The translations under genes were made by a program, and so were the position numbers. From positions 41,740,555-41,804,554 of the forward strand of contig OX467083.1 in NCBI GenBank assembly GCA_950106755.1: DNA of 64,000 nt, read 5' to 3'. This document shows, piece by piece, positions 6,390-47,340 of the stretch (position 1 is the stretch's first letter; each line of letters starts with the position of its first letter). Origin of the DNA: Climacium dendroides (lineage: Eukaryota > Streptophyta > Bryopsida > Hypnales > Climaciaceae). The notes beneath the pieces are model-generated. The model was not told the DNA's origin and did no database searches. It saw nothing but the letters and a program-made list of their open reading frames with translations.

Positions 6390-6528
6390 CACTACTAGAA
6401 AATTTCGTATTTCTGTTGTTTTGGTCGCGTTGATCCGGTCAAAATTTGACAGAAATCTGTTGGTTTCAACAGATTTTGACCGGATCAACGCGACCAAAAC
6501 AACAGAAATACGAAATTTTCTAGTAGTG
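6390..6528. mobile_element. 139-bp CACTA-type palindromic MITE
   Basis: The element starts CACTACTAGAAAATTTCG and ends with its exact complement. The two arms match perfectly for about 56 bases and are separated by a short loop. It is flanked on both sides by TTT, a 3-bp target duplication as expected for the CACTA (En/Spm) superfamily. It has no coding capacity. The unmutated arms suggest recent movement. Confidence 0.9.
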
Positions 6529-7827
6529 TTTCTTCTATAAGGTATTTTCTAGTCACTTTTATTCCCATTATTTTTTTAGTTAGTTTTTTTCTTTACAAAG
6601 AAAATAGCCTCCAATATATTCCTTTGACCTACATATTATAAGTAATGATAGATATGATAATATGGGTGATTTTTTTTGCTTTAGGTAATGATAGGGGCCC
6701 TTTAAATGCTTTCTAGGAGGTAATTTGACCCCCAAAAAATACCCCACCACTGCATGTGGGTCCCCCAAACATACAAGGAGTGTCCTCCCTAAGCATGTAC
6801 ACTAACATTGGTGTGTGGACCAAAGGATTGCTCTTATGAGATGTTTGAGTAAGGTAACTACACCTTAAATCACATGCTTTTTAAAACCACATAGGCTAGA
6901 TTCTTGCCTAAATGTACTTCTATTGTTCATGAGTCTATGGTTGGTTACCCTAAACTCTATTTTCAGTACTTTGAATATTCATAATTCATTCATATAGTGT
7001 TTGAAAAATGTATTCTTAGAGTTCATCTAAAATCCTCTTTTGGCTTCCAACAAGATCCTACCAATTTTTTTTTCAATATAGTAATGGAAACCATGTTGAA
7101 TTGCTTATTTGTGCAAATTTAGGTGTAGTTACCTTAATGGGTCCTGGTATGTGCCATGCCATGCAATGGAAGCCAAAGGTTTTGGCTCATTGTGTACACC
7201 TCTTCCATGCCCGAGTCCCTTGGGATTTTGGTGTAGGACTTGTGTAGGGTGCAATGATTTCTTCCACGCAGAAGGTAATGGTACTCTCTGCCTTCACAGA
7301 GAACCTAACCTACAGTGACTACCAAAACTGAGTACGAACATAGCATACTGAAATTCAACAAACAATGTAGGAAAATTGGATGCACCCAAAATGTTTCATG
7401 TACAAACACATCGTGCCAAAATCATATCGAGCCAACATGAGAGAAAGTGTGCAATAAGTAAACAATAGACCCTGTAATTGGCTAGTAACCTAACCACACC
7501 AAGATCCAATAGCTCTTGACCAATAGTGGACACCATGGTCACAAGGAAAACGCCTTGTAACTTGTGATATGAGTCACAATCACAGTAAAAGCCTACAAAC
7601 AATGATATCAATGCGAAAAACATCCTATCACCATCAACACTAACACTGGCAACATCCATAGCATAGTAAAGAAACACCCCCCATAGTACTTAGTACACCA
7701 GGTGTAGCAAGTGGTTTTACAACCACTCCATTACTTGTCCCCTTTGCCAGTGTGGAAGCCCTTTTCACACTAGTAAACTTAGTAGCCTTCTCTAAAGCAC
7801 TAACGAGAATCCAGTGGAAAAACCGTA
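6529..7827. other. Spacer that should contain the 3' end of the gypsy element; LTR not delimited
   Basis: On the - strand, sequence just downstream of the PHD finger (about 7700-7830) still looks like decayed coding sequence. The 3' LTR of the retrotransposon is expected between here and about 6600. I found no convincing direct repeat with the region right of 16870. Confidence 0.3.
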
Positions 7828-8148
7828 TTAAGATGTCGATGCTTGTCTACGCCCTGATACACACTTGGGACAAACCCAACGGCCCGTTGGGATTTCATTC
7901 AAAGGAGGATTCAAACAATCCATGTGCCACCCTGTGGAACAAATATCACATAAAACCATGGTAGCAACACGCTTGGCATTGCCACACAACACACATTTCA
8001 GTCCAGCTGAAATCTGTAAATTATTTGAATCGATCCGTTCATCTATGTGTGGCAAATGATACAATGCACAATTGCGCATGTGATCCTTCCAGACCTTGCC
8101 ATCACGTTCCTCCAAAAGTAGCACGCCAGACTTGAGTACCTCACGCAC
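7828..8148 (-). pseudogene. PHD finger (C4HC3) at the pol C-terminus of the gypsy element
   Basis: An open stretch of 106 codons contains the zinc ligands CVLC, CDIC, HMDC and CPKC, with the aromatic residue of GWHMDC and the loop NPPLNEIPTGRWVC. This is a full C4HC3 plant homeodomain finger. PHD fingers read the histone H3 tail (unmodified or trimethylated K4). Just before it, the stretch SGVLLLEERDGKVWKDHMRN matches the end of an integrase C-terminal domain, so the PHD finger is fused behind the integrase rather than being a separate gene. All ligands are intact here although the rest of the element is damaged. A role in choosing insertion chromatin is inference. Confidence 0.85.
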
Positions 8149-8499
8149 TCATAGAATAATACACCTTGCAATCACGTTGAGGGAGATTGGTGTCGTTTGC
8201 TGCAAATAAATGTCGTCACATGGCAGGAAATGTCGAATCTGAGGTCAGTAACCTCCTCCTCATATTGTGGCATAATGCAAGGTGTCTCTATGTTGTGCAA
8301 TTGAAAGGTTCTCCAAAGCCATAGGCATCATCCTCTTGTACAAATCTATCCGTTGCTCGCAAATGCGTGCCTACATGTTCAGTTCATTTAAGCCATCCAA
8401 TATCTTATATGTATCTTGTTTGATAGCCATGGGTAAATTAGGGTGGTGCCCAAACAACAAATAATAGAGTGAAAATAAGCTAGAGATGCTTGCTTACTA

Positions 8500-10000
8500 A
8501 ACCGATGGTCCATTGCTATCCACGGTAGTTGTAAGTCCCAATCTATATGATGACCCTTCTTCAAGCTATATTTTTAAAGTCCCTTCTTGACGGTTTGCAC
8601 CATGCGCTCCACCAATAAATCTGCTTTGAGATGATCTCACAAAGTAGCACTACTAGAAAATGGTGTTCAAGTTAACAAAAATTTAACAATTTTTTGTTGA
8701 TTGGAATACTATATTGATCATTTTAACAATTTTTCGTGATTTGAACTAACTCACAAAATAGTCATTGAATTTTTGTTGATTGAAATAATACAACATCCAA
8801 ATTAGCAAAAAAGTTAACACTTTTTTGTTAAAAAGACATGCCTATCACACATTGGTGATATAAGAGAGGTGATTTTGGTGACATAAGAGAGGAAAAGATA
8901 ACCTCTTTATACAAATTGAGTGATAAAAGGTCAAAACAAACTATATGGGATATGTGAATCATTCATAGTTTTAATTCACATATCCCATATGGTTTGTTCT
9001 ACCTTCTACCATCCTATTTCTATAAAGAGATTGTCTTCTCTATTGTTCTATCACCAAAGCCACTTCTCTTCTATCACAAAATATTAAGTTCTATGAAACT
9101 TGTCTCCTAACTTAATTATAAAGTATAGCTTTCTTCTAATTAAATTCTAAAGTCTAATTTTTCGTCCTATTTATGTGTTTTTTTTGGCCTATATGGTAGT
9201 TTGTACTAAACTGGTTTTTGGCTTGCCATGTGGCAGCCATTCATTGAGCAAATTTAAAAATGAATTAATATTATTATTTTTTTGATTTGACCACCATAAC
9301 AAAGTAGACAACAGTTTTTTGTTAGATGCTGTCTAAGACAACGCGGCCACAGATACAAACGCCCTCAATACTTTTTGGTTAATTTTTTGTTGACATGGTC
9401 ACTATTTTTCTACTAGTATAGTGTGGTGATCAATCATGGCTTGTTCACACAGGACTTGAAATTCTCTCAAGAACTCATGCCCTTGGTCAATTAAAACCTC
9501 AGTTGGAACTCCAAAATGATTCAACACCCGGTCCAAGAATGAATAAGTTGCCCTTTTATTGAATTTATCAAGCAGTGCCACTAGCTCAATCCATTTGGAA
9601 AAGTGTTCAATCATCACCAATACATACTTGTTGTGTCATGATGTTATTGACAATGGTCCTGCAAAATCCAAACTCCATCTATAGCCCAATTCCATGATTG
9701 GCAACGGTTGTAATTAAGGCATTGGGGCATTAAATAATGCCCGCACTCTGTCACAAACCGTACATCTAGCTATTAATTGTTAGACTTGCGTTTGCACGCC
9801 TCGCCACCAATATTGAATTTGCAGCAAGTTGTGAGTTCATTGCACTCCAAAGTGCCCCCAAGTCCTTATATGCAAGCAAGATCAACTTTCCTCTCTCAAG
9901 AGGCGCCGAAACCACCTTCTTAGTTCTTATTGCTGTTTGGCTATACTTGAAGTAAATAAGCCCCTTCCTACACAAACCTTTTTGCTTGTTGTAGGATTTG
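8500..10000 (-). pseudogene. Integrase of the gypsy element, interrupted by a MITE
   Basis: The N-terminal zinc region is read in a shifted frame around 9740-9830 (QIQYWWRGVQTQV, then CTVCDRVRA). The core has RWSLDFAGPLS with the first catalytic Asp near 9670, MIEHFSKWIELVAL, and DQGHEF with the second Asp. The third acidic residue lies in LVERMVQTVKKG (about 8580-8620), on the far side of the inserted MITE (8648-9423). Downstream, the - strand reads DWDLQLPWIAMDHRFSKQ, typical of the core-to-C-terminal link. Several stops and frameshifts are present. The enzyme would have inserted the cDNA into the genome. Confidence 0.85.
8648..9423. mobile_element. 776-bp CACTA-type foldback MITE inside the integrase
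   Basis: Left end CACTACTAGAAAATGG, right end CTAGTATAGTG; the ends agree apart from a small indel. Flanking triplets are TAG and TGG, a 3-bp target duplication with one mismatch. The element folds on itself around 8965: AAACTATATGGGATATGTGA on the left faces TCACATATCCCATATGGTTT on the right, and weaker pairing extends outwards. No coding sequence was found. It separates the second catalytic Asp of the integrase from the third acidic residue, so it arrived after the retrotransposon. Confidence 0.8.
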
Positions 10001-10251
10001 ATCCGATCCTTCCCCTTGGTTGACAATGTGGTTACTAATTCGCCATGCTTCAAATATTTCATCACATCTCCATCCTCAAAAATGTCTTTGGTGCCCTCAG
10101 ACTTTTCACTACCATCTGTATCCATCGTGGCTACAATGGCTTCTTCAATAATGTCTCCAATCATCGCCAATAAATTCAAATAAACGACAACATGCCAACC
10201 TGGTAATGAATCTTCTCTCTTCATGTGCCAATGAGCCCATGTAGAGTCCAC

Positions 10252-10716
10252 TTAGCTAAGACGTGGATTGTGGCTCAAGCTGTCAACATCCATGTTCACC
10301 AAGTGGGCACGGAGCATAACTTTAAAATCATAGTCCATTAGCATCAAGGTCCATCGTGCAAGCTTGCTAGTGAGCTTGTCAGACTCCATGAGCCACTTCA
10401 ACGGTTGGTGATTTATAACCAATAGAAATTCGTTGCCATATAAATAATAACAAAAGTGGGCAATGGCCCAAATCGTTGCTAAACATTGTCCCTCATATGA
10501 GCTGTATTGTGCTTTAGCGTTGTTGTTAGAGCAACTAGCATAAGCTACCACAAATTCCTTGTCATTGTCGTCCATTTGAGTCAGCACTACGCCAATTCCT
10601 AGTGAACTCCAGTCCTTGTGCAATTGATATGTTCTATCAAAAATTGTCCTCTTCAAGATGGGTGTCGATGATAAACGCTCCTTCAATTATGTGAAGGTGA
10701 CCTGCTCATCTCCCCA
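10252..10716 (-). pseudogene. RNase H domain of the gypsy element
   Basis: Open for 144 codons with LHKDWSSLGIGVVLTQ, YSSYEGQCLATIWAIAHF, NEFLLVINHQPLKWLMES, KLARWTLMLMDYDFKV and a VDSLSHNP end. This is the Ty3/gypsy-type RNase H joined to RT. The first catalytic Asp (DWSS) is kept. The Glu expected in the YEG-x-CLA position is Gln, and the Asp of the usual DHQPLKW motif is Asn. With two of the catalytic acids gone, the domain cannot cleave RNA in RNA-DNA hybrids. Confidence 0.88.
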
Positions 10717-10719
10717 CAT

Positions 10720-11500
10720 TCAAGGTTGATCATTCCTTGTTAGTATGGTTAATGGCTTTGCAATGGCATTAAACATCTTTACAAACTTCTGATAGTAATT
10801 GCACATTCCCAAAAATGTCTGCAATCTACTCACATCCTTTGGTCTTGGTATAGAAATCATCACTTTCATTTTGCTAGCTACCACATCCAATCCACCAGGG
10901 TATATCATATGGCCCAAGTACTCTACATGATCATAATAAAACTTACATTTGTTTGGATGCAATTTTAAGCCATGAAGTCTCAGTTGAGCAAAAACCTCCT
11001 TCAAGTGAGCTCTGTGTTGGTTTTGATTCATGCTATAGACAATAATGTTATGAATGTAGCATTTCACAAAATCCAAGCCTGAAAAAGATATGGTCTATGA
11101 CCCTCTGAAATTCAGTAGGAACATTTTTCAAGCCAAAAGGTAGAAACCTCCATTGATAAAGTTGGTCCTTTCCATCCTCATTGATTCCTCAGAATGTTGT
11201 CTTTCCCTTATTACCTTCTCGAATACCAAGTTGGTGATAACCTGACCAGAGATTCAAAGTACTAAATACTTTGGCATGGCCAATGACATCAAAGTTCTCC
11301 TTTGATGTCAGCATTGCATAATGGTTGGACTTCGTGAATTTATTAATTCTCCAATAATCCCCATACATCCTCTTTTCAGTCCAATTACCAAAAATATCCT
11401 TCTTGGATGGTATGACTATCGCTGATGCATACTCATAGTCCGAAGATGCTAACTCCACCAATCCGGCCTTCAAAAACTCCTTGGTTTGGTCTTGAATCAT
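10720..11500 (-). pseudogene. Reverse transcriptase domain of the gypsy element, catalytic box lost
   Basis: Two open pieces (11189-11500 and 10720-11076) are separated by a frameshift. The first has EYASAIVIPSKKDIFGNW, GDYWRINKFTK and AKVFSTLNLWSGYHQLGI. The second has VKCYIHNIIVYS, HLKEVFAQLRLHGLKLHPNK, VEYLGHMIYPGGLDVV, FLGMCNYYQKFV and AKPLTILTRND. These are the ordered RT blocks of Ty3/gypsy. The usual Asp in the FSTLDL block is Asn, and the two Asp of the Y-x-D-D box are His and Asn, so all three metal-binding acids are gone. Confidence 0.92.
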
Positions 11501-12064
11501 CTTGCGCTCTACCTCACTATACTTGTACGGCTTGCGATAAATCGGTGCGTTATCATACGTACCTCTTGTCCCTTAAGAACTTCCAAGTCTTTCAAACTAA
11601 AAGCAAAGCAATCCACGTGACTCTTGAGGAATTCTTATTCTTGTTTCTCCTCTGTTTCATCTTCCAGGCCTACTAACGGTTTCCAAATTTTCTTGGTCAC
11701 TGTTTCCTTTCGTTCTTCTCTTGAAATAGATTTCTCCACCTTTGGTTTCTATTGTCTATCAGTTAAAGCAACTTGATCTTGCTCCACACCTACCATACTA
11801 TATTGTTCTTCAACTTGACTCAAGCACCATAGTTCCATCTTCGGTTTGACCAATTGATTCCAATTATTCAAGTTTGTCCTTGAAGTTGTGAAAAATGCAT
11901 TATTTTTCCACATATTCCATGATGAGTTGTAAAGGCGTCTTCGCCCCCAACCATCAAGTGTGGTGTCTCAGAACTTGGTGGTTTCATAGCTGTTTGCAGC
12001 TCATAGAATCCCAAGTGGCCATCCAATGTCGAAGCTAAACGCTCCTATTCGGTTGTTACAAGTG

Positions 12065-12990
12065 ACACAATCCATGAGAGACAATTTAAATCCATGGCCT
12101 AGCTAATGAGATATTGCCTTTGAAACTTATTAATGCTAGATGCTTGGATGATTCCCGTTTGAAACCTCATAGCCCGTTCCCACTCATCAGCGTTGAGTTC
12201 AACCATCTCTTCAGTACAAGGACCATTGTCCTTGAACGCATAGGACTTGGAAAAACTCACCAATGATGGTAAAGCTCTCTGTGGCTCACCCTTACGATTT
12301 ACCACCACAAGTGGTGCTTGATCATCATGAAAAATCCGTTGTGGTGACCGATGAAGGTCTAAAATATCCTTCACATATACGTCAGGCTGGTGAATACATT
12401 GTATTGCTACATGCAAGAATTCTGGTGGAGCCAAATTAGTCCACCAAAGTCATGGCCTATGAACTCTAGAATCCACCGCTGCTGCATCCAATAATACTGG
12501 AATACCAGGAACTTTGTGGACATAATCAAGACTGTCAAGTGTGTAGATTCGTGATGTACCAACCACTGGTACATTCTCAATGATGTACCCCGGAGGCCGC
12601 CGTTGAGAAGTTTGAATATATTTAAGTATTTTCACCATGTCATAGAATTTTGAAGAATGTTTATCCTTCAACTCATTTTGTTTGTTAGTCATAGACATAC
12701 CTTGGCATGGCCATCCTATGATAACCAAGTCTACCGACCCCAACTGAACAATGTCTTGGAGGGAGATGAATGATATATCGCTCGGCAATGCAGAAAATGT
12801 GATCGTGATAGCATTGGTGTGCAATAAGGTTGAAAATGCTCAATATAAACATCGGACATGGTGCTTGGCCACGTGCTGTACCATATCATCGTTATTGACA
12901 TAAATATAACGCTTCACCTTTATACCTACTTGCAATATGGCCGCCAACCCTATGCCAATGCCACCAAACAACTCCAAAAAATTATACCTT
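12065..12990 (-). pseudogene. C5 cytosine DNA methyltransferase domain inside the gypsy pol
   Basis: The motifs follow in canonical order. Motif I is FLELFGGIGIGLAAIL (about 12945-12980, AdoMet binding). Then come YIYVNNDD, motif IV GWPCQGMS with the catalytic Cys (about 12690-12715), motif VI YIIENVP, motif VIII around SRVHRP and LWWTN, a segment with ALPSLVSFSKSYAFKDNG, and motif X QRQYLISQAMDLNCLSW. The length of about 300 residues fits a catalytic domain alone, with no BAH or UBA domain. Enzymes of this fold transfer a methyl group to cytosine C5. Two in-frame TGA stops break it, at 12840-12842 and 12450-12452; the catalytic Cys and the ENV motif are intact. It lies between protease and RT in the same orientation, so it belongs to the element and is not a host gene. 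Confidence 0.93.
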
Positions 12991-13270
12991 CTTTTGGTGG
13001 TTTCCACCAGATTGTTGAAGTGTCCAAATGAAGACTGTTGTTGTCTTCACTTTCAACCACTTTGTTCTTTTGTAGTAACAAGGGTTATTGCCACCCCTCT
13101 TGGGTGACTTTGCTAACTGTCTCTTGTAGTTCCACGGTACTATCCCATGCTGCTTCCACGCCGAGACAGTACAACATATCGCCTCTAGTGTCCTTACCAT
13201 CATGATGATCATAGTGCTCAATGACATTCAAAAAAGCAGCAACAAGAGGATCTTTAAAATCCTCTTTGAA

Positions 13271-13965
13271 TCATAGTTGACCCTTGTCTACAAGTCCAGC
13301 AAAACAATAGAGATCAGCTAAATTACTAGTAAGAACTGATATAAATCGAGCTTGTAGTTGAATTCTGTACCCATCTTCCACTTGCCATCCCGGTCTATAG
13401 TATGTTGTCTCTTCCCAGAAGTCCAAGGTGAATCCCATAGAGTATAATACCGTAGCCCCCATCAAAACATCATATAATTTAGCCTCTGTGACTATGGCCT
13501 TCACCTTCATGAAGCTAGCGTTCTCGACATCATCTTGGCACAACCGCAGTATCAACTCACCCCTTATGGTGCCCTTTGCCGTTCTATTGAAGTACTAATC
13601 GTCCACAAATATGTTTCCAACACATTCTCGGTCAAACCCAAGCCTTCAATTGCTAACCCTCTCAACATCAAGGGTTGTGCATTGGAATCCAATAGTACCC
13701 GTTGAGGCATAAAAACTCTCCCTTTGGATTCAACTAATTGAAAAATATCTTGAGAATTGTCTAATACCACTACCCCTAGGGTAATGGAGGACCGTTCTAT
13801 TGTTGGGCGTGTTGGCATAGTCTTGATCCGGGCAACGGCTAATAAAAGCCCTTTTGCTTTAGTCCACTCACTATCAGTCATTGCTTGTGGCTCAAGCATA
13901 GCTTCTATGGAGCTCACCAATGCCGAGCCGCCGCTCTCACACATGGTAGCCACCAACTGAAACAC
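13271..13965 (-). pseudogene. Retroviral-type aspartic protease region of the gypsy element
   Basis: The stretch 13564-13965 contains PQRVLLDSNAQPLMLRGLAI, the active-site loop in which the usual third residue Gly is Asn. The next open stretch (13271-13555) has VTEAKLYDVLMGATVLYSMG and FTLDFWEETTYYRPGWQVED, the C-terminal half leading to the methyltransferase. A stop and frameshift separate the two. The protease would have cut the gag-pol polyprotein. Confidence 0.75.
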
Positions 13966-14430
13966 TATACTAGCACTAAATTATGCTTGGGAAATCATGG
14001 ATGTTGTGAACAAAGGAGCTTAATAAACATTGGTTGCTACATCCAAAAGATCACCTGTACCTTGTTCATTACCATATAGAGTCCGAGCAGCTCGTCGACT
14101 ACTCAAATTGTGATGTAGTGGTACCATGGAAGAAGTGGGCACCATATCTTCAAGTGTAAATGATTCTGGTATCCTAGCTTGGCAATTGGCCTGATCTCTC
14201 TGTGGATTCAATCCCGAATGTACACCTCGTGGTGCATCATGTACCATGGTCTTGCTCCTAGTCAATGCATAAGCATCTAGTGGCGTGGTCTAAGCATCAG
14301 ACATGCCACACAACATATGGTCACTTTCTTCCACATAAAATGAAGTTGCCTCCATAGTAGTAGTAGCACTCATAACTGCCATTTTAGCCTCTAATTCTTT
14401 GAAATGTGCCTTCCATGACATTTTGTCTCC

Positions 14431-15553
14431 TCACGTAGACTTGGCCTCCTTGGAATCATTGTTTTTTGCCTCCTTTGTGTTCTTGAGCTTGAGTTCGAGA
14501 TAAACCTTCAAACAATTGGCCTCCACATGACCCTTGATCCCGCAATTAGAGCAAAATGCACTAGTTTTTGCTATATTTTTGCGAGATGTCTTTTTGCAAT
14601 CTCGCCGCCTATGACCAATACCCCCACAATTGAAACATGTGATGTCAGTGTCTCTAGTAGGAGCTGGAATGCTCGCCTTTGCCATCTTGGTCTTTTCTTG
14701 CAGTTTCTCCTCCTTGTGCAAGAATCCTATGACCGCCTTTTCCTCCAAGAGATTAATCTCAATCCTCTTGGAGGTCTCAGAAACATACCTTAAGGTAGAC
14801 GGGACACCCAACCTCAAGGCCTCACCTCGAACGAGAGTTTTTAGCTTTTTATCCAAGATGCTATACCAGTGCTAAACAGCTTGCTGCTCAGTCACTTCAT
14901 GGGTAGTAGAAATCAACCGCCTCAATCTCGAATGCGCCTTTCGCAATGACTCATCACTTCTATGTGCAACCGTGCGAAGTGACTTCATTTTGTCAACCCT
15001 TTGCTCGTAGTAATCCCGTTGCAGTTGCAAAAAGAACTAAACCGTGAGATTGAAGGGAGGTGGATCTGGTGTTGGTACCGGACTCAAGGTCATAGTGGCC
15101 TCTTGGCCTCCCGTGCTTATACCCCTTTCTTCCTTCTTTCCTCTGCTAGTAGTTACTATGGCAATGGATCCCCCTCCCCAAACATCAGTATAGTTTAAGG
15201 TGTAGTAATCCCACCAGGCCAAGATCTCTATGGAATAAGCAAGCTCAAATTCCCCATAGTCTGTCAATGGTGCCCTTTCAAGACACCTGAATAGCCCTCC
15301 ACACTATATATGGATTGAAGTTGGTGTTTTGTGACCTTTGGAGTTCACACCACATAGTGAATTCCCTGCGGAAGTCATCCACTTCCATGGTACCATTGGC
15401 ACTAGAAAACCATTGGACTCCTCGATCAACGCCTCCATACGATTTAGTCATCTCGTTCCACGTGAATATGGATTCGTTATGAGCAAATCTTACCGTGTGG
15501 TCAACTGCAATGACGGGTATATCTTCTCCCTTGTCACATTCACTATCGTCCAC
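14431..15553 (-). pseudogene. Gag: capsid and two CCHC zinc knuckles
   Basis: Three open pieces in order give the capsid (MEVDDFRREFTMWCELQRS, then LTDYGEF-like sequence with EILAWWDYYTLNYTD), the capsid C-terminal part (MKSLRTVAHRSDESLRKAHS, VTEQQAVQHWYSILDKKLK, LRLGVPSTLRYVSETSKRIE) and the nucleocapsid. The nucleocapsid has two zinc knuckles, CFNCGGIGHRRRDC and CSNCGIKGHVEANC. Gag packages the RNA in virus-like particles. Stops and frame changes lie between the pieces. A lysine-rich tail follows the second knuckle and leads to the protease. Confidence 0.88.
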
Positions 15554-15639
15554 CTAGTCTGCTCGATCTTCACCAGAATTTGGAAATAAATCACTTGAGA
15601 TCCTCCTACCTACATTAGGAAAAAATTGAACTCACAAAG

Positions 15640-16862
15640 AGGCCTTGAGTTTTTTTACTAATTTTTATATTAATTGAATGAATATAAAGGTGGTCGGTCA
15701 TATCCTCATTAATACCACCACTTGGCGTATGCTCCATTCTTCATGATGAAACCATCATAAGATTTATAAGATCATGGAGATGGATTGGGTAATGATGACA
15801 ATTTTTTTGAATTCATAGTGTAATTCATAGCCCAATTAGTGAACTGAGAAGGCTTTTCCCACTTAAATTTATGAGATTATGGAGATGGATTGGATAATGA
15901 TGATGAATTTTTGAATTCATCATGCAATTCTTGGCCCAATTAGTAAGTTGAGAAGGCTCTTCCCACCCAAGCTTTTGCATTACAAAGCGACCTCTTTTGG
16001 GATTCAATTTTTTCCTAATGAGAAGGGCCTTTGACTTCGAAGATGTACCGGTACAATACTACTAGTGTTTGATGACTCAAAAACGATGTCCTTAGCAAAT
16101 GGTGTCCCGCTCCTAGTGTAATTCGGCCTCCTAGGCGGATCCAACTTTTACATGCAAATCAAATTGCACATGTAAAGTTGTCAAGCCTCATACGTCCCGT
16201 CACGCATCCCCTCCATAGCCTCACAATAAATAGTTGGTGACACCTCCATGTCAAGGAAACTAAATATTAAAAAATTCCAAACACTAGATGCTCTCTTTAA
16301 CACCAACCTTGTTCCCACTACCATGTGGTGTGGAACAAATAGTCCGTGGCCCAAAACTCTGTGAAGATCAATGAAAATGTTGGCAATTGAATTGCCCCCT
16401 CAAAGATGTGTCTCACCACTTCTCAGCGTTGACCCTTGTTTCTTAGCACAACCGCCACTTGTGGAATGACCAAATCCACTGCCTCCACCCAACCCTTTAT
16501 CCGACTTAGTGGGGCTTCAATCACAGGCCTTTGTACTTGTTTGTCACAAATGATACTCACCCCTCGTTGTTGAGTCCAAAATTTGATGACTTTTGGACTC
16601 AAAACCTTAGTGTCTAGCTACTTGAACGATTGTACTCCAAGTCGGTCACGGGCCAACAATGATAATACAAATGGAGCAACTGGTTCTTGAAATTGATGTC
16701 TTGGAGGTGATTCATCCAATGATCCTACTTGAAGACTTTGGAAGGATTCAAAGGATACCTTAGACTCTTCCTTAGTGAGGTCAATTCAAACTCTTTCTTC
16801 TTTCGCTTCTCCAATTGGTATCAGTCTAAAAGGCTTAGGGATATCCTTGCCCTTGTTCATGG
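15640..16862 (-). pseudogene. Degenerate coding-like region upstream of gag
   Basis: From an ATG near 16857 the - strand reads NKGKDIPKPFRLIPIGEAKE, then SFESFQSLQVGSLDESPPRH, APFVLSLLARDRLGVQSFK, VIKFWTQQRGVSIICDKQVQ and SRIKGWVEAVDLVIPQVAV, interrupted by stops. After a frame change it continues with SPTIYCEAMEGMRDGTYE. It looks like former coding sequence of several hundred residues. I recognise no domain. It may be the N-terminal part of gag, an extra retrotransposon ORF, or a captured host gene. Confidence 0.5.
15770..15966. repeat. Imperfect tandem duplication, two units of about 100 bp
   Basis: The unit starting ATCATGGAGATGGATTGGGT (15771) is repeated at about 15874 as ATTATGGAGATGGATTGGAT. 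Both continue through similar GAATTCAT, CCCAATTAGT and GAGAAGGCT blocks. It lies inside the degenerate region upstream of gag and probably arose by slippage or unequal exchange. Confidence 0.75.
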
Positions 16863-16870
16863 TGATACCA

Positions 16871-18793
16871 CATAAACCAACCCACCATTGCAAACCAAAG
16901 GTAAAAATCACAGAAGGCTAATGGCATGCCATATGTAGGAAAATCAACTTTCACTCAGAAATAAAAGAAATGTTTGATAATTGGTACATGTCACCAACTA
17001 CACTCCAGAAGTAGAACTAACCAATTACATTGCTAGTTCTACAGAAAAATCCACCTATCCCTACTGCTAATGCCTTAAGCCTAAGTGGTCAATCATTCAA
17101 TAAGTAAGATGGGTTGATGTAGTTATTCCTCATAATCATCCTATGGATACTCCTACTTCCATAGAGTTCAAATTTGAAAGTCAAATTTATGTTTTAGGGC
17201 CTCCAAGTGAATGATTCCACCCTAATTAGGGTGCTGAAATTTCTAAACACAAGCTAATTTTCTCCCATTTGACAAGTTCCCTTGCCAACTGAGCCCTAAT
17301 CAACACTCACTTGACTCCCATGAGAATCTAAACTTTAAAAAAAAGTCTTTTTTTTTAAAGCAAATTTGGGGTCTTAAATGCCCTTGAATGACTGGCTAAC
17401 CAGTCACCAATCTTTTTGTGACCGGGTACCACCAGTCACCTTGTCACCTCCCAATAATCAAGTGAAGAATGCAGGCACTTACAAGATGCAAGATGATCCC
17501 CTAACCTCCGAAATACTCAATTTCAACTGCTACTACCCGAATATGCCTTCCCCAAAAGCATGATGTGCAACCGGTTGTACCGAAACAACATTCACGCACC
17601 AACCACCACACACAAGATGTTTGCAACCGCACCCTTAGTGAACAAAGACTTGGTGCCCGACTTCGCAATAATCTGCTTGAACCCGTTTCAAGTCCACTAG
17701 AGGCTATAGAGATTGCAAATGTACATTTTCGGACTGCAGAAATTGATTTTACCATCGAGGTTCTGTCATAGCTAGGTCAATCCGGGATCACCTCCAATTC
17801 AAGTCTTTGTTTGCGTCTTCATCGTAAGCAAAACCATTTGGTTCATAACAGGCACACCGCACACCTTAGGCACCAAGCTCCCGATATTCCCTCATTCTTC
17901 TATTTTCCAGCTCCTCTCCAGCTTGCAAAGATCTATGACCCAGCCTTGAACCAAACAATTTCGCCAAATTTAACACCATTCTCGGGAGTCACGCACCCCA
18001 AAGCTTCCAACATAGCCCAGCGCTTCCTCCCTTTCTCTGTGGCTACAGTACCATTTCCCCCCCTTACAACTTCAAGCTCCCACTTAGAGGGTTTTTAGGA
18101 GAGACAAACACTTTTCCCCCTTAAGTTTTGGGACACTCTTAGGTGGCTTCTTCCTAACCCACCCTTTTCTTATCCTAATCCCCAAAGCAAAGCCAATAAT
18201 GCACCTAATTTCCAAATATGGGTTTAGGACCCGTTTCCAAGGCTTAACCCCCCCTAAACCCATGGTTATGGTGCCGAAGCTCCAACTTTGCTTGCAATTC
18301 CAGCACAAAAAGAATCCCTAAAAAACACTCAAAAATCCATTTTCCACTACTTTAGGTGTCAATTTTCACTATGCATACACCTATAAACATAGTGACATCT
18401 TTCTCAAGTAATAAACGTGAGGAAAAGTCTAGAAAAAACTCACAAAGAATTACAAAGTTGTATCAATGCCATTCTTAAAAAGTGATAGTATGTGTAGATG
18501 AAGTCCACAAGGCAAAACCTCTTACTCCATCATGTGGGAGACTCAACTTGATAAAGATGAGTCTCCAAAACCTCCACGTGGAGGTCAAGGGGATTGAGAT
18601 GCCGGGTGTTCCAAACCTCCTTTGACACCTCCACGACTCCACAAACGCCACCCGATGCGGAATCCAAGTTCATGCGTCTCTCATGACAAATGAAACTATA
18701 AATTGTACAGAATTACCATTGCAATCAATCATACTTCCATGGAGATTGAGGTCTATTACACACAAGTATGCATGTACAAAAAAAAGTGAAATT
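16871..18793. other. Region expected to hold the 5' LTR of the gypsy element; no gene supported
   Basis: Short coding-like strings occur on the + strand (for example VNKDLVPDFAIICLNPF near 17640) without continuation. I could not find a pair of direct repeats with the left flank, so the LTR is either strongly decayed or displaced. Nothing else is recognised. Confidence 0.35.
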
Positions 18794-23199: not shown

Positions 23200-23725
23200 C
23201 AACCTAATTCCGACGATTCCGTACTACTGGGTTGGACATTGACATCGATTTCTTCTATAATTGTTCAGACAGAAGGTGACAGCTCTGGCTTGTGCAGAGC
23301 ATCTTTCTTTATTAACGACAATGAGAAATCATTATGATTTCTCATCCCTTTTCCACGACTTTCATTCTCACTAGTTTGTCGGGTATTCTTTCCAGTTTCA
23401 GCTGTGTGTTTGGGCTACTCGAGATTCGGTTTCTACAACGCACTGAAGTTGCTCTTTATCGCACCGCTACGCTACAGTTGGCGTGATTTGGCAGTTTCAT
23501 TTGAAGAAATTAGGAGCGCTCTTGGGTGCGACTAGATCATAGTTGACTTCGCAGAAACGATTTCGTTGTGAATCTGTTTTGATTTTAAAGCTGTTCTTTG
23601 TTTCTCGATTAAAGAGCTTCGTGCGAAATTTGGTTCAAGTGATTGCTATCTGTCAAGGTCCTTATTTGTGAAAGAGAGCGTTGATTATTAGTTGGAAGTA
23701 TTTGCAATTCGTGTAAATCCAGAAG
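23200..23725 (+). promoter_or_regulatory. Upstream region of the proline dehydrogenase gene
   Basis: This gene-free 0.5 kb lies directly before the ATG at 23726. It should hold the promoter and 5' UTR, possibly shared with the - strand exons to its left. I saw no copy of the ACTCAT element known from Arabidopsis proline-responsive promoters. Confidence 0.4.
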
Positions 23726-26216
23726 ATGGCATGGAACAAGGCTCGCACTGTCGTGCAACTCTATTCCTCGTCGTGCAGAGAACTCGTGAGGTGTCGATTT
23801 GAAGTCATCAGAGGAGTTACGACGAAGGCCGATCTTTTCACGACGCAGCCCACTTCGGATGACATTGTACTGAGCAACAATGGGGAGGCGTTATATGCAA
23901 AATTGACCTCGAAGGAGCTACTCAAGGCGCTGTTGAACCTTCAGTTGGTTGCGTATGAGCCCATGGTGGACTTGAGCATCAAGATTCTCACATCCGACTC
24001 TATGAAATCTCCTTGGTTGAGGGCGGCGGTTTTACCCGTTCTCAACAGAACCTCTTACTCCCATTTCTGTGCTGGAGAGAACGTCGAAGAAGCCTCGATA
24101 ACATTGGCAAGAATGTGGGAGCTAGGCGTACGTGGCATCATGACCTACGGACTTGAAGACGCAACGGACAGCGAATCTTGTGACCAAAATCTTGACAAGT
24201 TTTTGCAAATTGTTCGACAGACCAGTCAGCTGCCGCCGGAATCTGTAAGATCATGCTTCACTTGCTTGTCCGATTTGACCGTAATTTCCAGATTCTTAGT
24301 CTAAGATTTTTCGTTTCGTCTTCTTAAATGCTTGCTTGCTACAGAAAACACGAGTCACGCGTTAACTCGATTTTCTTGCACGAGTTTTCCATCAGGTGAG
24401 CAGTGCTTGCGTGAAGATCTCGGCCATTTGCCCCATCCAAATTCTCGAGCGCGTGAGCAATTTACTGCGGTGGCAGCATATGAACAAGGATTTCCGTCTG
24501 CCATGGAAGCAAGATGTAATCCCTGTCCTAGCAGAATGCAGTCCGATGTATCACGTTCAGTCTCTTCCGCAACCTCTAACCGAAGAGGAAGAGAAGCAAT
24601 TGATGTTGGCCCACAACCGCCTTGCCAAGCTCTGCCAAACTTGTGAATCGGAAGGAATTCCTCTGCTGGTCGATGCTGAGTATTCTCTCGTACAACCAGC
24701 GATTGACTACATCATCAATGTAGCTGCCAGCGAATTCAACAGAGCCCCACAACCTCTGGTTTATGCAACCATGCAAACTTATTTGAGAGACTCCTTCTCC
24801 CGCCTCAGTATGGCAGTGAAAGGCTCACATCACAGGGGACAATCGTATGGTGTGAAAATCGTTCGCGGCGCCTACATTTCTCGAGAGAACGCGCTGGCAG
24901 CTTCTTTGGGGGTTCCTTCTCCAATTCACCCTAACATTGAAGCAACGCATCGGTCCTATGATTCTTGTGCTGCGTTCATGCTGGAACAGACAGCTTCAAA
25001 CGATGGGTCGGTGGTGCTTGCAACTCACAATCTGAACTCAGGTGAGTAGTCGACCTATCAGCATGCCAGGGGGGTCACATTGGCTCACATTCTCCTTCTC
25101 GCACCGGTTTCTTTGAATGCCTGTGAATGTTGAGTAGCACCCTATCACTGCCTCATCTGTAAAGTTAGGTTTTAATGGGTTTTACCTTTCATTGAAAGAG
25201 TTTCAAACTTCTTCTCCGAGGATTACCTCATTATCATACACATTTCTTTTTACTGTATGAGATTCATTTGGAATGGTGATGCACCTAGTTTGTCTATTGA
25301 AAGTGTGCTATTGTCATTACATTATTCAGTCTGAACCAGAATTGTTGGTTGAATTAGTTAGTTTCAATGATGATGGATGATGGATCATGACATTTCGCAT
25401 CTCAGTCTCGAGGATTGTCCAATTACTATAAAAAGTGATGAACTACTAAGAGATTAAGATCGGGGACTCGATTTGCAGGTCGCGCAGCAGCGGCTAAAGT
25501 TCAAGAACTGGGTTTAGCGCGAGGAAATCCTCGGGTTCAGTTTGGACAGCTCAAAGGAATGGCCGATGTGCTGTCTTTGTCCCTCGTTCATGCCGGTTTC
25601 CGAGTGAGCAAGGTACTACCATTCGGAACCGTTGCCGATTTCATCCCATTCATTGTCAGACGTGCGGAGGAGAATCGTGGCCTTCTCGGCAATACTGTCA
25701 TTGATCGTCAGTTCCTCAGGTGCGATGTACTTCCTATGTCCTATCTCTGTAAAAACTACATTGTTGCAATTACCCATTCCGTTGAAATGGACTTTTCTTC
25801 GAAAATGTAGCTGGTTGTCACATGACGGTCCGCAACACAAAATTCACCTTAATCTGTGCTCCACAGTGATTTTAGGAAGCTGGTCAAAGTAATCTAAATT
25901 TTTCAAATTTTATCGAGGTGCTTTTGATCAATTTAGAAACCTCGAAGTACCTTAGCTTACAACAACCCCCTTGGGTATATCATAATGGTTGTGGGTCACA
26001 TTAATTTTTCACTCACTGCAATTGAACACACACACTACATAATAACTGTATTTTAGTATAGCAATTACCGTATTACAATAATAATTCGCCCAAATCGCTG
26101 GGAGGCTCTTCACACTCTAACAAGATATTCATCGCTATTGTCTTTACTGACATTGTGATCCTTTGGGATTCAGGGCAGAGCTGACAAGACGACTACAGAA
26201 AAGCTTCACCTCGTGA
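23726..26216 (+). CDS. PRODH: Proline dehydrogenase, mitochondrial (four exons, 482 aa)
   Basis: Exons 23726-24244, 24396-25041, 25479-25719 and 26174-26216 join in frame through GT-AG introns to give 482 aa, close to the roughly 500 aa of plant enzymes. The enzyme is an FAD flavoprotein of the inner mitochondrial membrane that oxidises proline to pyrroline-5-carboxylate. The first 30 residues are basic and fit a targeting peptide. Conserved blocks are VKISAICPIQILERVSNLLR, LLVDAEYSLVQPAIDYI, VYATMQTYLRDS, GVKIVRGAYISRE, ATHNLNSGRAA, GQLKGMADVLSLSLVHAGF, VLPFGTVADFIPFIVRRAEE and DRQFLRAELTRRLQKSF. They cover the TIM barrel, the FAD and substrate residues and the C-terminal helix with its RRAEENRG motif. 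No damage is seen. The ATG at 23726 is the first in the frame. Confidence 0.95.
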
Positions 26217-27906: not shown

Positions 27907-27954
27907 TCAAGGATTTCCAGCAATGTGGAATTCGATACTGAAAATTTTGAGAGG

Positions 27955-30711
27955 AATGAAGCGAATTTTAGCCAGTTCTGTGAACGCTGCTCCAAACATG
28001 GAGTGGGAACGGCACGTCTCGATCGAGGACATCACAATCCAGACCGGAGTGGGGATGGACAAGTCCCAGGCTCCTCCCACAAAAATGTGTAAGCACAACA
28101 ACGCCTAACAAATTTGTCGGCACAAGCACGGCAAACACAATCGCTGACAAAAAGTTCCTCATCAAGAACATGATGACGATCCGGGGATAAATTTCAGACA
28201 ACTATATTTATTGATAAGTCCAAGCTCAACTTCCCATGCTTGGTGGAATCTAGGAAGAGAGTTCATACACCATAACTAAAATTCCACGGCTACTCAACTC
28301 AATCAAAAAAAAATCATCAAGCAAAGTTCCAAGAGGACACAAAATATCGAAATACAAGCACCTTGGGAACAAACTCAGTCACAAGAACAAAACACCACAC
28401 AAAAGCATGTCACCAAGCCACAAAAAAAACGAGCACACACTAATGGTATACATGCACAAAGAACAACACAGAAAATCCACACAACCCAATCACAACCAAG
28501 ACCCCACGGAATCCAATACAACGCCCAGTTTCCCCACGAGGGACCACAAAAAAAATGAATCTTTTCATTCAGGGAAACCAAAACAAAACATCAAGTGCGC
28601 AAATAAATAAAAGGTACTCGCAAGTTCACTACATTGAACGAGGATAAATGAATTAAGACATTGCCAGCTGGCCCTTGCAGTTAAAGGGCGCCCTATTTAC
28701 AGTACGAGGGCCCTGGCGCAATAGCTGCACAAGAACCAACCTTCGGTAGCAGCACTAGCAAGAAAGGACAAGAGTCCTACAACAAACCCAAGCCCCGATC
28801 CTTCAAAAACAACGTCTTGACACAAGACCTACACATGTCAGTCTGTACACTTCAGAACGAAGGGCTCTTTGTACACGCCCGTTACAGCTAACTCCTGCCT
28901 CGACCCTTGCCTTCTTTTCACACACTAACGTTGCTCCCTACCCATTCACACTAGTCCAGGGCACAACTGAACCACCTGAAATCACACTACCAGGGAGAGA
29001 AAAAGGGTGGATCCAACACATAATCAAGCCGCCATTACTCACGGACTTCCCAACTCCAAATATAGGAAGAGACCTAGTACTTATAGATACACAGACTAAT
29101 GACAGCCATCCAAACAAGATACACGCCAGCACCATATGCTAGGATGCTCACCCAGACCCTCTCCCGACCTTCAAACGCCAACGGACTACAATCCTACACT
29201 AGTACACTATTTACTGCTCACGAAGGCCGTCGGACCGCCGAAAAGATGCCTTCCCATGGCACGCTTCAACACACTCAGCTCAATGCGCAACAATCTCCGC
29301 CATCACACCAGCGACACACGAAGCCAACACGCAAGGACATCCACGTCGCATACCCTTCCGCCACTCGAAAAGCCAGCACCGAACAAAGACTCCACCGGGA
29401 TTCAAGTGGAAGCCAAATTATGCGCCATGTAGGCAGCACTTCGTCTCTCTGCACGCAAAACAAAATACACTAAGCCCAGCGTCGCAACAGGCACGCCTCA
29501 ACAAACACGCAGCGCACACGAAAAAACCTTCCACTGGCCACGCACAAAAAAAACAGATTTCGACGAAAAAACACCAACTACCGCTTCCCTACCAAATCCT
29601 GGCTCTACGCAATCAACCATTCAACCATCAAAACAGAACACTCACCGCCAGCAGCGACCAGCTTCTCCACACGTGTAACGATATGCTTCCCATACGTGTA
29701 CTTCTTCAGTGCATGCAGGTGCACACGAATACGACCGAGCAATAGTTCACGCTGCGACTCGTCACATGTCTCCAGCACCTTCTGGACAACATAGTTTGCA
29801 AATTGGTCTTTCATCATCGCCTGCAAAAAAAGAAAAAAAGAGAAAAAGACACCTCCTGGTAAGCATCTGGCCAACAAGGCATTTCCATCAGTCGGGACAC
29901 GCAGCAACTGCGAAAGCACGAGCCAGCACAGAAATGTCAATCCAGGAAACGGATGGGGGTCCTCCACGCAAGAAAACAACCGCTCCAACAAATCACACTC
30001 GACATTCCATGCATCGTTCCAGCACCAACCAAAGCTGCACCAGGCCAAAAGACTACGCCCGTTGCTTTCAGGCTTGCACACACAAAGCAAGCAATGTACA
30101 AGATCTTGCAACAATTCACTCTCAAGCACACTCCCCTCGTACCTGCAGCGGCTCATTCTCGTCCGTCAGGCCCAGCATTTCGTCAATCAAAATCTGACGC
30201 TCCACCGGACCACCATACTCCAAGCACTTCTCCACCACGTTCGACGCGAACTTGTGTTGACTCATTTGGACAATTTGACCGGCCAGCTTCGTTATGATCT
30301 CAGTTCTCTCATTATCGCGCCCGTGCTCCAACACATGCTGAAACAAAAGTCATCGAGACCGCCCACATCCATACGCACGTAAGCAAAGCAGGACACACAC
30401 ACACACCCTCTCAAACACACTTGGAACTTGGAACAGTCACGATCCCAAACTACAACGGAGTCACAACTCACGCTCAAACTCACGAGACACCATAACAGCG
30501 ACACCACACGGACCTGGACCACGTAGTTGCCATACTGATCTTGAGCAAGAGCACAGGTGGAACGTAAAATCTCCTCCATGATCCCCTTCTGCTTCTGCTC
30601 GTCGGTGCAGTGCTCCAGAACCCTCTGAACCAACGGAAAACACATTCCAATATCAACGATCCGCACCACAGCAACACTCCAAACGGGGACACCAGAAATA
30701 CAAACACCGAC
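27955..30711 (-). repeat. Inverted repeat, right arm (3' part of the complete PUF gene)
   Basis: This arm pairs base by base with 1-2757 in opposite orientation, with 25.2 kb between the arms. It contains PUF exons 8-11, their introns and about 1.4 kb after the stop codon. The homology ends on the left side near 27955 in an abrupt drop, followed by weak homology to 27907. On the right side it runs at least to 30711, where the partner reaches the window edge. Confidence 0.93.
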
Positions 30712-36400: not shown

Positions 36401-36609
36401 TAGTAACTTGAGTCACTAATCCCATCGCTAATCGTGCTCAGCTGGGCAACAGAATCAGGTGGTCGCTGTCTGTGTTTGTTCCTCCTGGGCGGCATGTGTC
36501 CCGCATTCCCGCGCAACTGAGGAGAGCAGCTGGATCGCGAATGGCAGCTTCGGCAGTCGCGCTGCGAACTAGAGCTGCGCAACCGGCTTGGCTTACACCC
36601 CCTTCAATT

Positions 36610-38193
36610 CACACGGAGGAGCATTGGAGGAGGGCCCCTAGTAGGACTACTAGTGGTCATGTTGGCCTTACTAAGCCTTGTTGAGAAGAATGATTCACGT
36701 AGCTTGCATTTGGGGACAAAAACAAAATGAACACTGAAGTATTGCTAATCACACTTGAATCCAAAAGGAATGGTAGGATTCGCATTGGACCTTCTAGGCA
36801 AGAATTTATAGAGGCCAGTTTCAAAGACGAGGGAATCCCAATGATTGCGATGCGCTAAGTTACCTTACAATGTCAAGGGATCCAATCACTTTTCTTGCTC
36901 TTGTGGTATCTAGTTAATGAACCAACACAAACCATCGTATTCAAAATAAAGGACAAGCTCCTGGTCCATCATAAATGTACAAGAATCCATCTATAGTTAA
37001 CATTATAAAGTACAAGGAAAAGCTTCAGTTGGTTATAAATTTTGTTTGTGACCGCTTGCCCACTCTATAGCTGTATTTGGACATTATTTGAGAGAGTGCC
37101 TTCCATCTCTAATCTCGTACTCCCAACCTGTCAATTCCACATGTAAGATGCGTAGCAACATTCTTGTATGGTCAATACATTGTCACTTTCGTGTCCAATC
37201 TTATACCCTCCTAGGCACGTGCCAAATATGTAGCTGTATTTCTACATTATCTGACAAAGTCACTCCCATCTCTAATCTCATACTCCCAACCTATCAGTTT
37301 CACGTGTGAGACACGTAGGTACATTCTCGTGTAGATAATTCACTATCACTCCCTTATCTAGTCTTGCACACACATCCCGGCCACATGCTAAATGTATAAT
37401 TATATTTTCACATTATTTGATAGAGTCACTCACATCTCAAATCTCGTACTCCCAACCTGTTAATTCCACATGTGAGACGCATAGGTACACCCCTATGTAG
37501 ACAATACACTGTCACTCTCTTATCTACTTTTGTACATTTCTAGCTACACATCAAATCTATAACTGCATTCCCACATTGTTTTATAGAGTGCCTTCCATTT
37601 CTAATCTCGTACTCCCCACCTATCAATTCCACATATGAGATACATAGATACATTCTTGTGTAGACAATATATTCTCACTCCCTTATTTAATCTTGCCCCC
37701 CCCCCTCCAACCACATGCTCAATCTGTAATTGTATTTTTACATTATTTGATAGAATCACTCCTTTCTCTAATCTCGTACTCCCAACCTATCAATTTCACG
37801 TGTGAGACACGTAGGTACACTCTTGTGGGGACAATACACTGCCATCCCTTGTCTAATCTTGTATCGTTTACAATGAAAGAAATGACAAATGCACTATATA
37901 AATACAAGGTGGAAATGGTACTAAACAAATTCAATGAGTTTCAAAGGTACTTAATTTCTGATTTTTTTAACTAAAGCAAGACATCAAATTTTTTTGCTTC
38001 TCCTGCTTTTTTGTTCTCTTTTGAAAAGCTCCTAAATTTTGAGAATCAGAAGATAGTTTTTATATTATTTGGTCTTGGCAAATGAGTTGGCATAGATAAC
38101 CAACATCTTTAAATCTATCTACAAATAAATTGGGAATATGACAATTTAAGGGTGGATTGGGGTAAAAGAATTTGAATTCAAATGAAAAGTCAT
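36610..38193. repeat. Repeat family A, copy 1
   Basis: It begins near GGAGCATTGGAG (36620) and ends at GAATTCAAATGAAAAGTCAT (38173-38192). Between these lie a non-coding head, five tandem units of about 165 bp and a tail starting ATGAAAGAAATGACAAATGC. Copies 2-4 share this plan. No coding sequence or clear terminal repeats were found, so the class of the element is unknown. Confidence 0.8.
37081..37875. repeat. Five tandem units of about 165 bp inside family A copy 1
   Basis: Units start at ACATTATTTGAGAGAGT (37081) and at related words at 37244, 37412, 37574 and 37740. Each contains CTAATCTCGTACTCCCAACC and a variant of CACGTGTGAGACACGTAGG. Units within one array differ more from each other than from the unit at the same place in other copies, so the array was present before the block was duplicated. 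Confidence 0.88.
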
Positions 38194-38196
38194 CAT

Positions 38197-38488
38197 ACTA
38201 CTAAAATCATAAGTCCCTCTGTAATATCACAAATGCTACCATTAATACTAGGGGCTCGTCCTTGCTATACTACGCATTCATTGTATCACATATTAGTAAA
38301 ATTTTAATATATTTGAATAAAATGCATGATAATGATTTCAATAAGTCTTTAAAATAATTATTTTAAATATTTTTTATATTGTATTTTCACACAATGTGAT
38401 ATTATAGAAATAGAGTAGCAGTTTGCAATCACTTCTGTAATATCACTTTCTACAAAGGGTGATATTATAGAAATAATATAGTCGTTGC
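38197..38488 (+). mobile_element. Truncated copy of the TACTACTAAAATC inverted-repeat element
   Basis: It shares its first 290 bases with the full copy at 42431 and then breaks off at GTCGTTGCAA, where repeat family B begins. The words TAATATCAC and GTGATATTA occur repeatedly. Confidence 0.75.
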
Positions 38489-40085
38489 AATGAATACATG
38501 CAATTTTCTTTATTGATTCCAATGATATAATAATAAAAAACTTTTTCTTTATTATTTTTTTTGGAAATTTTATCAATGAATTTTCTTAAAAAGATACCAA
38601 CAAAATTGTGTACAATCATTTTGGAACAAGGAGTACACTTTATAATTTATGTTTAAAAATCTTGATTAAATTAAAGTACTATAGATGTTGAACTTTATAC
38701 CAAATCTTCATATCTTTAGAAACATTGTCTATGTCAAAGACCTTAAGAAGATCTCTTCAAATTAAATTAGTTACATTTTATCTTACAAGAATTTTTTTCT
38801 CTAATAAATTAACTACAATGTTATTTTGGTTGTTTTTTCCAAACTTCATCTTGAGATTCAAAGTGATTTTTTTCGGCATAAGACAAAACTAACAAACTTA
38901 AATTTCTATTATCTCTACATGAAAATTCCTTAAATTCTTTATAATATTGGAAATTGAAGCTAAGAGCCAAATATAAGTTTCAATCAAGAATATGGAAATG
39001 ATATTAAAGACAAAGCAAATTTGAAGCCAAAACATGAAGAAAGACCAAAAAGGTTGTAAGAGAGTTGCACTCTTTGTATAGATTTGATAAATAAAACTAA
39101 AAAACATAGAGATTGTAATGTATAGAACCTATAATTTTGGTAAGAAAATTCTCTTTTGATTTTTCACTTTCCTATGATTGAGTTAGAACTAACTATAATT
39201 CTTAAATGTAGAAAGCATTAACTTTGCAACAAATCTAGTCAAGCAATTTTTTTTAATTTCCCATTTTTTTAGACTCATTTGATTGCTCTGGTAACCCCAA
39301 CAATAGACACCTCACACCTATTTTGTCATCCTATCCCCTCTAATCTAGATTCCATTGACCTTCCTCAACGCGGTAGCAACCCTCTAACCCTCTAGCGACC
39401 TGTGAACTATCTTGTCCTTTCCACCCATCTCCTCTAATCTTGATTCCATTGACCTTCCTCAACGCGGTAGCAATCCTCTAGCGCCCTCTGAACTATCTTG
39501 TCCTTTCCACCCAATATGCAATGTCTTTCTCACCTCCACCGTGTTGCTTCAACTTGCCTTGGATTTCAATCAATGTGTCCCTCTCACCTCCACTGTGTTG
39601 CTTCAACTTGCCTTGCATTTCAATCAATGTATCTCTCTCACGTTCCCTCTTACTCCACTGTCTTATTTTATCGTGTTGCCTCAATTGGCCTCTGGATTTG
39701 ATTGATGGAAATCTTTTCAAGACAATAACTTTAAATCCAATAATGTTGCTTGTCATATTGTACATACAACAACATTATTGGATTCTACCACAATCCACCG
39801 AATTATAAAGAATCTAGCAATATCTAATGGATATTCAAAAATCTCTTGAGTGTTGAGAGGAATTTTGAAAAGGACACTCTCCAGATTTTTTAATACCTGA
39901 GAAATATTATTATTCATATACAATTATTAAAAATATATTATAAAAATAACAATATTTGAATATTTGAATTTTAGTTATTTTTTTGCTTTTGGAGATTGTT
40001 TGTTCCTACTTTGGATGGTACATCTTTTTGTCCTAAGCACTATGACTTTGGGTCTGGGCATTTATTTAAATAGAAAATTAATCTA
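38485..40085. repeat. Repeat family B, copy 1
   Basis: It begins at TTGCAATGAATACATGCAAT and ends at AAATAGAAAATTAATCTATT. It contains a 55-bp minisatellite (about 39527-39690) and a conserved stem-loop (39736-39782). It is nearly identical to 45648-47338. Open frames such as the one at 39412-39705 reflect the minisatellite and are not credible proteins. Confidence 0.82.
39736..39782. repeat. Conserved stem-loop in repeat family B
   Basis: TCCAATAATGTTG is followed after about 20 bases by its exact complement CAACATTATTGGA. The same structure is seen at 46989-47035, 51246-51288 and 52879-52929 in otherwise diverged B copies. Confidence 0.8.
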
Positions 40086-42412: not shown

Positions 42413-42430
42413 AATAATAATAATAATAAA

Positions 42431-44130: not shown

Positions 44131-44144
44131 GCTCATCTATGATG

Positions 44145-45640: not shown

Positions 45641-45647
45641 TTTATTC

Positions 45648-47338: not shown

Positions 47339-47340
47339 TT

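Follow-up and report, generated by a model that had tools for sequence, protein, structure and literature searches.

A decayed moss element is a remnant of a repeated plant retrotransposon family with a DNA methyltransferase and a probable histone-tail-reading domain

Cytosine DNA methyltransferases of the DNMT3 type have been described inside retrotransposons with split direct repeats (A and B below). In KnitGypsy-Dnmt3 of the charophyte Klebsormidium nitens, a DNMT3 without the DRM rearrangement lies inside a Gypsy-type pol and the DIRS-like repeats follow the order A-coding-B-A-B, and SymbioDIRS-Dnmt3 of Symbiodinium likewise has a DNMT3 in pol and A-coding-B-A-B repeats (PMC5890265, available passages). 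The accessible part of PMC12344493 names Copia and DIRS in mentioning retrotransposon-borne DNMT3 from streptophytes and dinoflagellates, and that of PMC6338049 states that land plants are without transposons encoding DNA methylases. Here we analyzed a stretch of 64,000 nucleotides from the moss Climacium dendroides (contig OX467083.1, positions 41,740,555 to 41,804,554, forward strand; "the window", numbered from its first nucleotide), whose minus strand holds a single decayed Ty3/Gypsy-type element with the order gag, protease, methyltransferase, reverse transcriptase (RT), RNase H, integrase and PHD finger. Our analysis confirmed this copy as the broken remnant of a repeated plant retrotransposon family with a DNA methyltransferase and a probable histone-tail-reading domain.

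The family shares the order protease-RT-RNase H-DDE integrase with Ty3/Gypsy elements, but the copies examined are without the two identical long terminal repeats (LTRs) of such elements. Among other retroelements with captured epigenetic domains, arthropod retrotransposons with a methyl-CpG-binding domain, reportedly described by de Mendoza in 2019, contain a reader of DNA methylation but no writer, whereas CR1-type non-LTR elements have a PHD-bearing ORF1, that is, a PHD finger in another class of element and another protein, with no methyltransferase. Chromoviruses resemble the family in having a chromatin reader at the integrase C-terminus (PMC2864245 and PMC3350952, available passages), but the reader here is a PHD finger, and no chromodomain was detected in Pfam scans of relatives P0018 and P0019. 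Unlike SymbioDIRS-Dnmt3 with its tyrosine recombinase (PMC5890265, same passages), the family encodes a DDE integrase; the Pfam scans returned an rve integrase match and no phage-type integrase match, so that this DIRS trait was not found. The link to a charophyte element that the first-pass annotation of the window had drawn is right in kind, given that the split-repeat layout is the same as in KnitGypsy-Dnmt3. That element has been reported from a charophyte only, the main text of PMC5890265, as far as accessible, is without the term "PHD", and its available passages yielded no 4-bp duplications.

The window copy is dead, because it contains 26 distinct stop positions within the stretches aligned to relatives, its reading frame shifts from domain to domain, and an insert splits the integrase. 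A deamination (C-to-T-type) signature was too weak to use, with 15 of the 26 stops compatible with one such change and 11 not. All domains that had been named from the sequence lie on one strand and in the proposed order; an element does occupy the span 7828..15553 proposed for it, but its true ends lie outside (Table 1), flanked on both sides by CATT (18689-18692 and 7390-7393; the last few bases were read by eye from the flanks).

The assembly containing the window (412.6 Mb, 123 contigs) has many more copies. The PF00145 profile matched 50 places, and genome searches with the related proteins P0002 (methyltransferase) and P0016 (integrase/PHD) returned at least 88 pieces each, which were grouped into at least 60 loci in either case. 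In 41 of 60 methyltransferase loci, an integrase/PHD locus on the same strand follows at most 15 kb downstream, against a chance expectation of 0.07, and no locus shows any other order. Matches to P0002 fell into two groups, one with about 50-63% identity, including the window copy, and one with about 40-43% identity and fewer stops. Among 14 loci with integrase and PHD in one stretch, PF00145 was detected upstream in 12, and comparison of the P0016- and P0002-search loci placed a methyltransferase in 13; the remaining locus is truncated at its 5' end, with gag and the beginning of RT missing too. Thus, other copies of this RT lineage do not all lack the two extra domains, the pattern that the first-pass annotation had named as fatal to its proposal, and the recurrence supports the gag-protease-methyltransferase-RT-RNase H-integrase-PHD layout as a family trait rather than a chance build-up.

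Relatives in other species extend this picture. The methyltransferase part retrieved 14 proteins, including nine from the liverwort Marchantia polymorpha, one from the liverwort Calypogeia fissa and one from Sphagnum fallax, with P0002 as the best match (61% identity); the Marchantia protein P0007 has the order methyltransferase-RT-RNase H, and in P0003 gag and protease precede the methyltransferase. The integrase end with the PHD finger retrieved 10 proteins, among which PHD was present in all eight scanned with Pfam (in P0025 below the curated cut-off) and, by precomputed annotation, in P0016 and P0021, while in Marchantia P0017 a single chain combines remnants of protease, methyltransferase, integrase and PHD. 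A profile whose match columns came mostly from the protease-methyltransferase part matched 214 proteins, of which the best 120 were analyzed. All 120 contained the methyltransferase, and PHD was found in 77 of the 80 chains that continue for 190 residues or more beyond the integrase match (the exceptions being P0038, P0045 and P0139). Among these 120, 49 are single chains of a sister arrangement, RT-RNase H-methyltransferase-integrase-PHD, in which the methyltransferase lies between RNase H and integrase and which occurs in chlorophytes and metagenomes. Across 144 proteins, chains with both RT and methyltransferase had RT first in 59 cases and the methyltransferase first in four (P0007, P0008, P0011 and P0015), all bryophyte; the RT-first kind includes the chlorophytes Haematococcus lacustris and Chromochloris zofingiensis, in whose chains the Pfam methylase match itself was below the cut-off. 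The writer-plus-reader layout, suggested earlier as possibly undescribed in a land-plant genome, is therefore real but not confined to one land plant, being present in chlorophytes as well.

In a quick methyltransferase tree, with a very long DNMT3A outgroup and plant host DNMT3 sequences left out, one branch parts the two arrangements (support 70 and 89), and in an integrase-PHD tree bryophyte sequences are nested, with weak support, among the others. From these sequence comparisons, a single capture followed by relocation of the methyltransferase within pol appears likely. No Klebsormidium name occurs among the 120 matches analyzed of 214, most of which are listed without a name. A first search of viral and prokaryote collections found nothing and later ones returned 45 and 6 loci, but in the best 40 tblastn matches nothing of the queries beyond their methyltransferase part was aligned, which means that no retroelement was detected there. 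Some related chains have additional features: a PTM/DIR17-type Tudor domain, possibly a second chromatin reader, follows PHD in P0022 (below the cut-off), P0024 and P0069; a G-patch domain occurs in P0130, P0100, P0114 and P0122; P0025 continues after integrase-PHD into a stretch with DPFGG and SPPF that resembles an adenine methyltransferase, with no Pfam match; and P0102, a complete element polyprotein from a record for a bacterial metagenome-assembled genome (Minisyncoccia), is probably eukaryotic contamination.

Our literature search found no report of PHD in this retrotransposon family, within a coverage outside which most subscription papers and bioRxiv preprints fall, and the terms "PHD" and "methyltransferase" are both absent from the accessible part of a survey of plant LTR elements (PMC6317226). 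Within the reach of these searches, four points are new: the PHD finger as a trait of the family, the spread over bryophytes and chlorophytes, the two places of the methyltransferase, and the combination of 4-bp duplications with split repeats. The family would show that one retrotransposon can hold an epigenetic writer and reader together, and that such elements are an old part of bryophyte genomes, contrary to the statement in the available part of PMC6338049.

Elements of this family may methylate their own DNA and select the chromatin in which they land. The explanation that we consider best, and reasonably probable, is that of a multi-copy family with DNMT3, an integrase-borne PHD finger and split repeats, in which cDNA is methylated and integration is guided by PHD away from H3K4 methylation; the last two are what we infer, beyond what the sequences themselves show, namely the anatomy, its recurrence, the ends, and catalytic and zinc-binding residues that stay near-invariant despite great divergence. 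The methyltransferase would be produced together with RT and integrase and would methylate the double-stranded cDNA of the element before or at integration, PHD would hold the integrase on nucleosomes that lack H3K4 methylation, in the way proposed for the chromodomains of chromoviruses, and new copies would arrive methylated and away from active promoters. Weighing against this explanation, dN/dS values between nine young copies are close to 1 (methyltransferase, median 1.21 over 34 pairs; RT, 0.85; protease region, 0.93; gag, 0.78), with no recent selection seen between these copies, whose differences look mostly like post-insertion decay. A wider version is more tentative, and we would sooner doubt than accept it: an ancient class spanning the green lineage, in which DIRS-like split-repeat cDNA is self-methylated by DNMT3 and a DDE integrase, by means of its PHD finger, places these pre-silenced copies in chromatin that lacks H3K4 methylation, the methyltransferase having moved within pol between algal-type and bryophyte lineages while PHD stayed. 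The relatives in Marchantia, a laboratory plant, make it testable whether a transposon benefits from self-methylation. Alternatively, the methyltransferase might serve mainly self-restraint or host fitness, silencing integrated copies or competitors and lowering harm, with PHD recruiting it to integrated copies; a gain from slowed transposition is discussed in the available passages of PMC5890265, and one element does encode both writer and reader, but PHD is on the integrase end wherever the layout is visible, which points to integration, and we regard this alternative as unlikely.

The zinc-binding residues of the PHD finger are nearly invariant: all of 86 fingers have the first six zinc ligands, and 85 have the last two, with one gap. 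At the position of the aromatic-cage tryptophan of BPTF/ING-type fingers, 73 of the 86 have glycine. Best matches of the PHD profile in the PDB include KDM5A/B, CHD4, MLL3, ATXR5, BAZ2, PHF21A, UHRF1 and AIRE, most of which we take to be readers of the unmodified H3 end. By sequence, the finger thus resembles those that read unmodified H3K4. Animal DNMT3 enzymes read unmodified H3K4 through an ADD domain; in the element, by comparison, the DNMT3 catalytic domain and PHD are located at separate sites. Many PHD fingers read H3K4me3, and such a finger would direct the element to active promoters, but the glycine at the cage position and several of the best PDB matches speak for the opposite preference and make this reading improbable. 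A structure model of integrase-PHD was poor (pTM 0.37) and was not used.

The C5 methyltransferase that had been read in the window is indeed there, and its motifs I, IV, VI, VIII and X are in unpermuted order. FGGIGIGL, GWPCQGMS and IIENVP are present as quoted in the first-pass annotation; of its QAMDLN, AMDLN was found, but directly preceded by an in-frame TAG. A Pfam DNA_methylase match in the window (E 1.3e-9) accompanies the alignments. The DRM type was rejected on the unpermuted motif order and on weaker and partial DRM2 matches, and the enzyme is DNMT3-like by sequence and, for P0002, also by predicted fold (mean pLDDT 66.9, higher across most of the methyltransferase). Among 86 aligned retroelement sequences, the catalytic cysteine is present in 84, with two gaps, and the motif-VI glutamate in all; these alignment columns replaced strict-pattern counts (29, 32 and 15 of 49 for motifs IV, VI and X), which had missed variants such as GWECQD. 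An action on RNA, raised for a LINE-type element in the available passages of PMC5890265, or a merely structural role is hard to reconcile with near-invariant catalytic residues and a DNMT3-type sequence and fold, and we give it little credence.

The ends were examined in ten copies with long integrase-PHD stretches and then in six further loci, with ends and duplications chosen by eye from flank sequence, so that some freedom remains. Two identical LTRs were absent from all of these, and split repeats were found instead. Nine copies of a younger group have a 343-bp repeat A and a 107-bp repeat B, arranged as A-coding-B-A-B in six (one with an extra inverted B), as A-coding-B in two, and rearranged in one; the tenth (C35) has the A and B of the other group. 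Among the further loci, that at 33.41 Mb on contig C34 is A-coding-B-A-B with repeats of 326 and 340 bp unrelated to those of the younger group, that at 15.99 Mb on C37 has a downstream B-A-B interrupted by an insert and no A found upstream, that at 34.86 Mb on C3 has A and B, and three have B only. In better-kept copies the ends read TG...CA. Of the eight younger copies with ends read, six have exact 4-bp duplications and two match at three of four bases; the duplications are also exact in the C34 locus and in the window copy. Within the six A-coding-B-A-B copies of the younger group, the two copies of A are 95.9-99.4% identical, which suggests recent activity, provided that they were alike at insertion. 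The combination of a DDE integrase and 4-bp duplications with DIRS-like split repeats raises the question of how the DNA ends are completed. Some copies are A-coding-B only or rearranged, as might follow from nested insertion into, or recombination within, an ordinary LTR element, but the full order was seen in six copies of one subfamily and again, built from unrelated repeats, in a copy of the other, with matching duplications outside, making this origin very improbable. Finally, although the heavily decayed window copy contains further inserts, chance insertion of both domains into one dead copy is refuted by the recurrence of the same domains, identically placed, across many copies and species, and its probability is negligible.

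The window copy itself shows A-coding-B only. The check for LTRs proposed for it came up empty, with no direct repeat of at least 60 bp in positions 1-24000 and no long match between the flanks, a result explained by the split direct repeats of the other copies. A Pfam scan was run with curated cut-offs on ten separate open segments of the element; nothing reached the cut-off in four of them, namely the two outermost methyltransferase parts, the protease segment and the initial RT segment, and for segments without a match the position comes from colinear tblastn alignments with P0002, P0003, P0007 and P0018. No tRNA or Rfam match was found in the window.

Table 1. Features of the decayed element in the window
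Feature	Position	Strand	Basis
Whole decayed element, A-coding-B form with inserts	7394..18688	-	Homology to other copies reaches these points; repeats placed by BLAST
5' repeat A	18409..18688	-	79% identity to repeat A of C34:33.41 Mb
About 410 bp extra relative to four other copies; contains 104-bp tandem repeat at 15762-15966	15611..16020	-	
gag, two zinc knuckles	14434..15553	-	PF00098, E 7.5e-10 on 14434-14871; P0003 residues 1-672 align to 15451-13585
Protease region	13292..13980	-	Colinear with P0003, P0007 and P0012; no Pfam match
DNMT3-type cytosine methyltransferase	11991..13046	-	Single frame, 4 in-frame stops in stretch read; 61.6% to P0002 over 12980-11976
Reverse transcriptase, more than one frame	10723..11572	-	PF00078 (RVT_1), E 6.2e-10 on 10723-11094; P0018 colinear
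RNase H	10255..10686	-	PF17917 (RT_RNaseH), E 7.8e-28
Integrase zinc-binding part and core	9405..9860	-	PF00665 (rve), E 3e-10 on 9405-9635; P0018 residues 621-766, 70.5%
CACTA-like insert splitting integrase, about 57-bp inverted ends	8632..9432	-	Inverted match of 9378-9432 with 8632-8687
Remaining integrase and its C-terminal part	8263..8636	-	Alignments to P0017 and P0018
Integrase end and C4HC3 PHD finger	7831..8148	-	PF00628, E 1e-11; 54-56% identity to P0016 and P0017
3' repeat B	7394..7735	-	88% identity to repeat B of C34:33.41 Mb over 7735-7399; end read from flank

The observed/expected CpG ratio is 0.48 in the element (7831-15553) versus 0.89 and 0.93 in two gene-like stretches, and the flank is equally low (0.39). 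Elsewhere in the window, a palindrome of about 140 bp (6390-6528, 90% self-complementary) lies near a CACTA-like end, and open frames at 23717-25807 resemble putative proline dehydrogenase exons by reading. The region 36600-54150 consists of nested, AT-rich segmental repeats in which 162-bp and 54-bp tandem arrays recur several times. An inverted duplication (1-2810 and 27907-30711, 99.5% identical over 2810 bp), cut at the window start, contains, by reading, part of a putative gene for a Pumilio-type RNA-binding protein.

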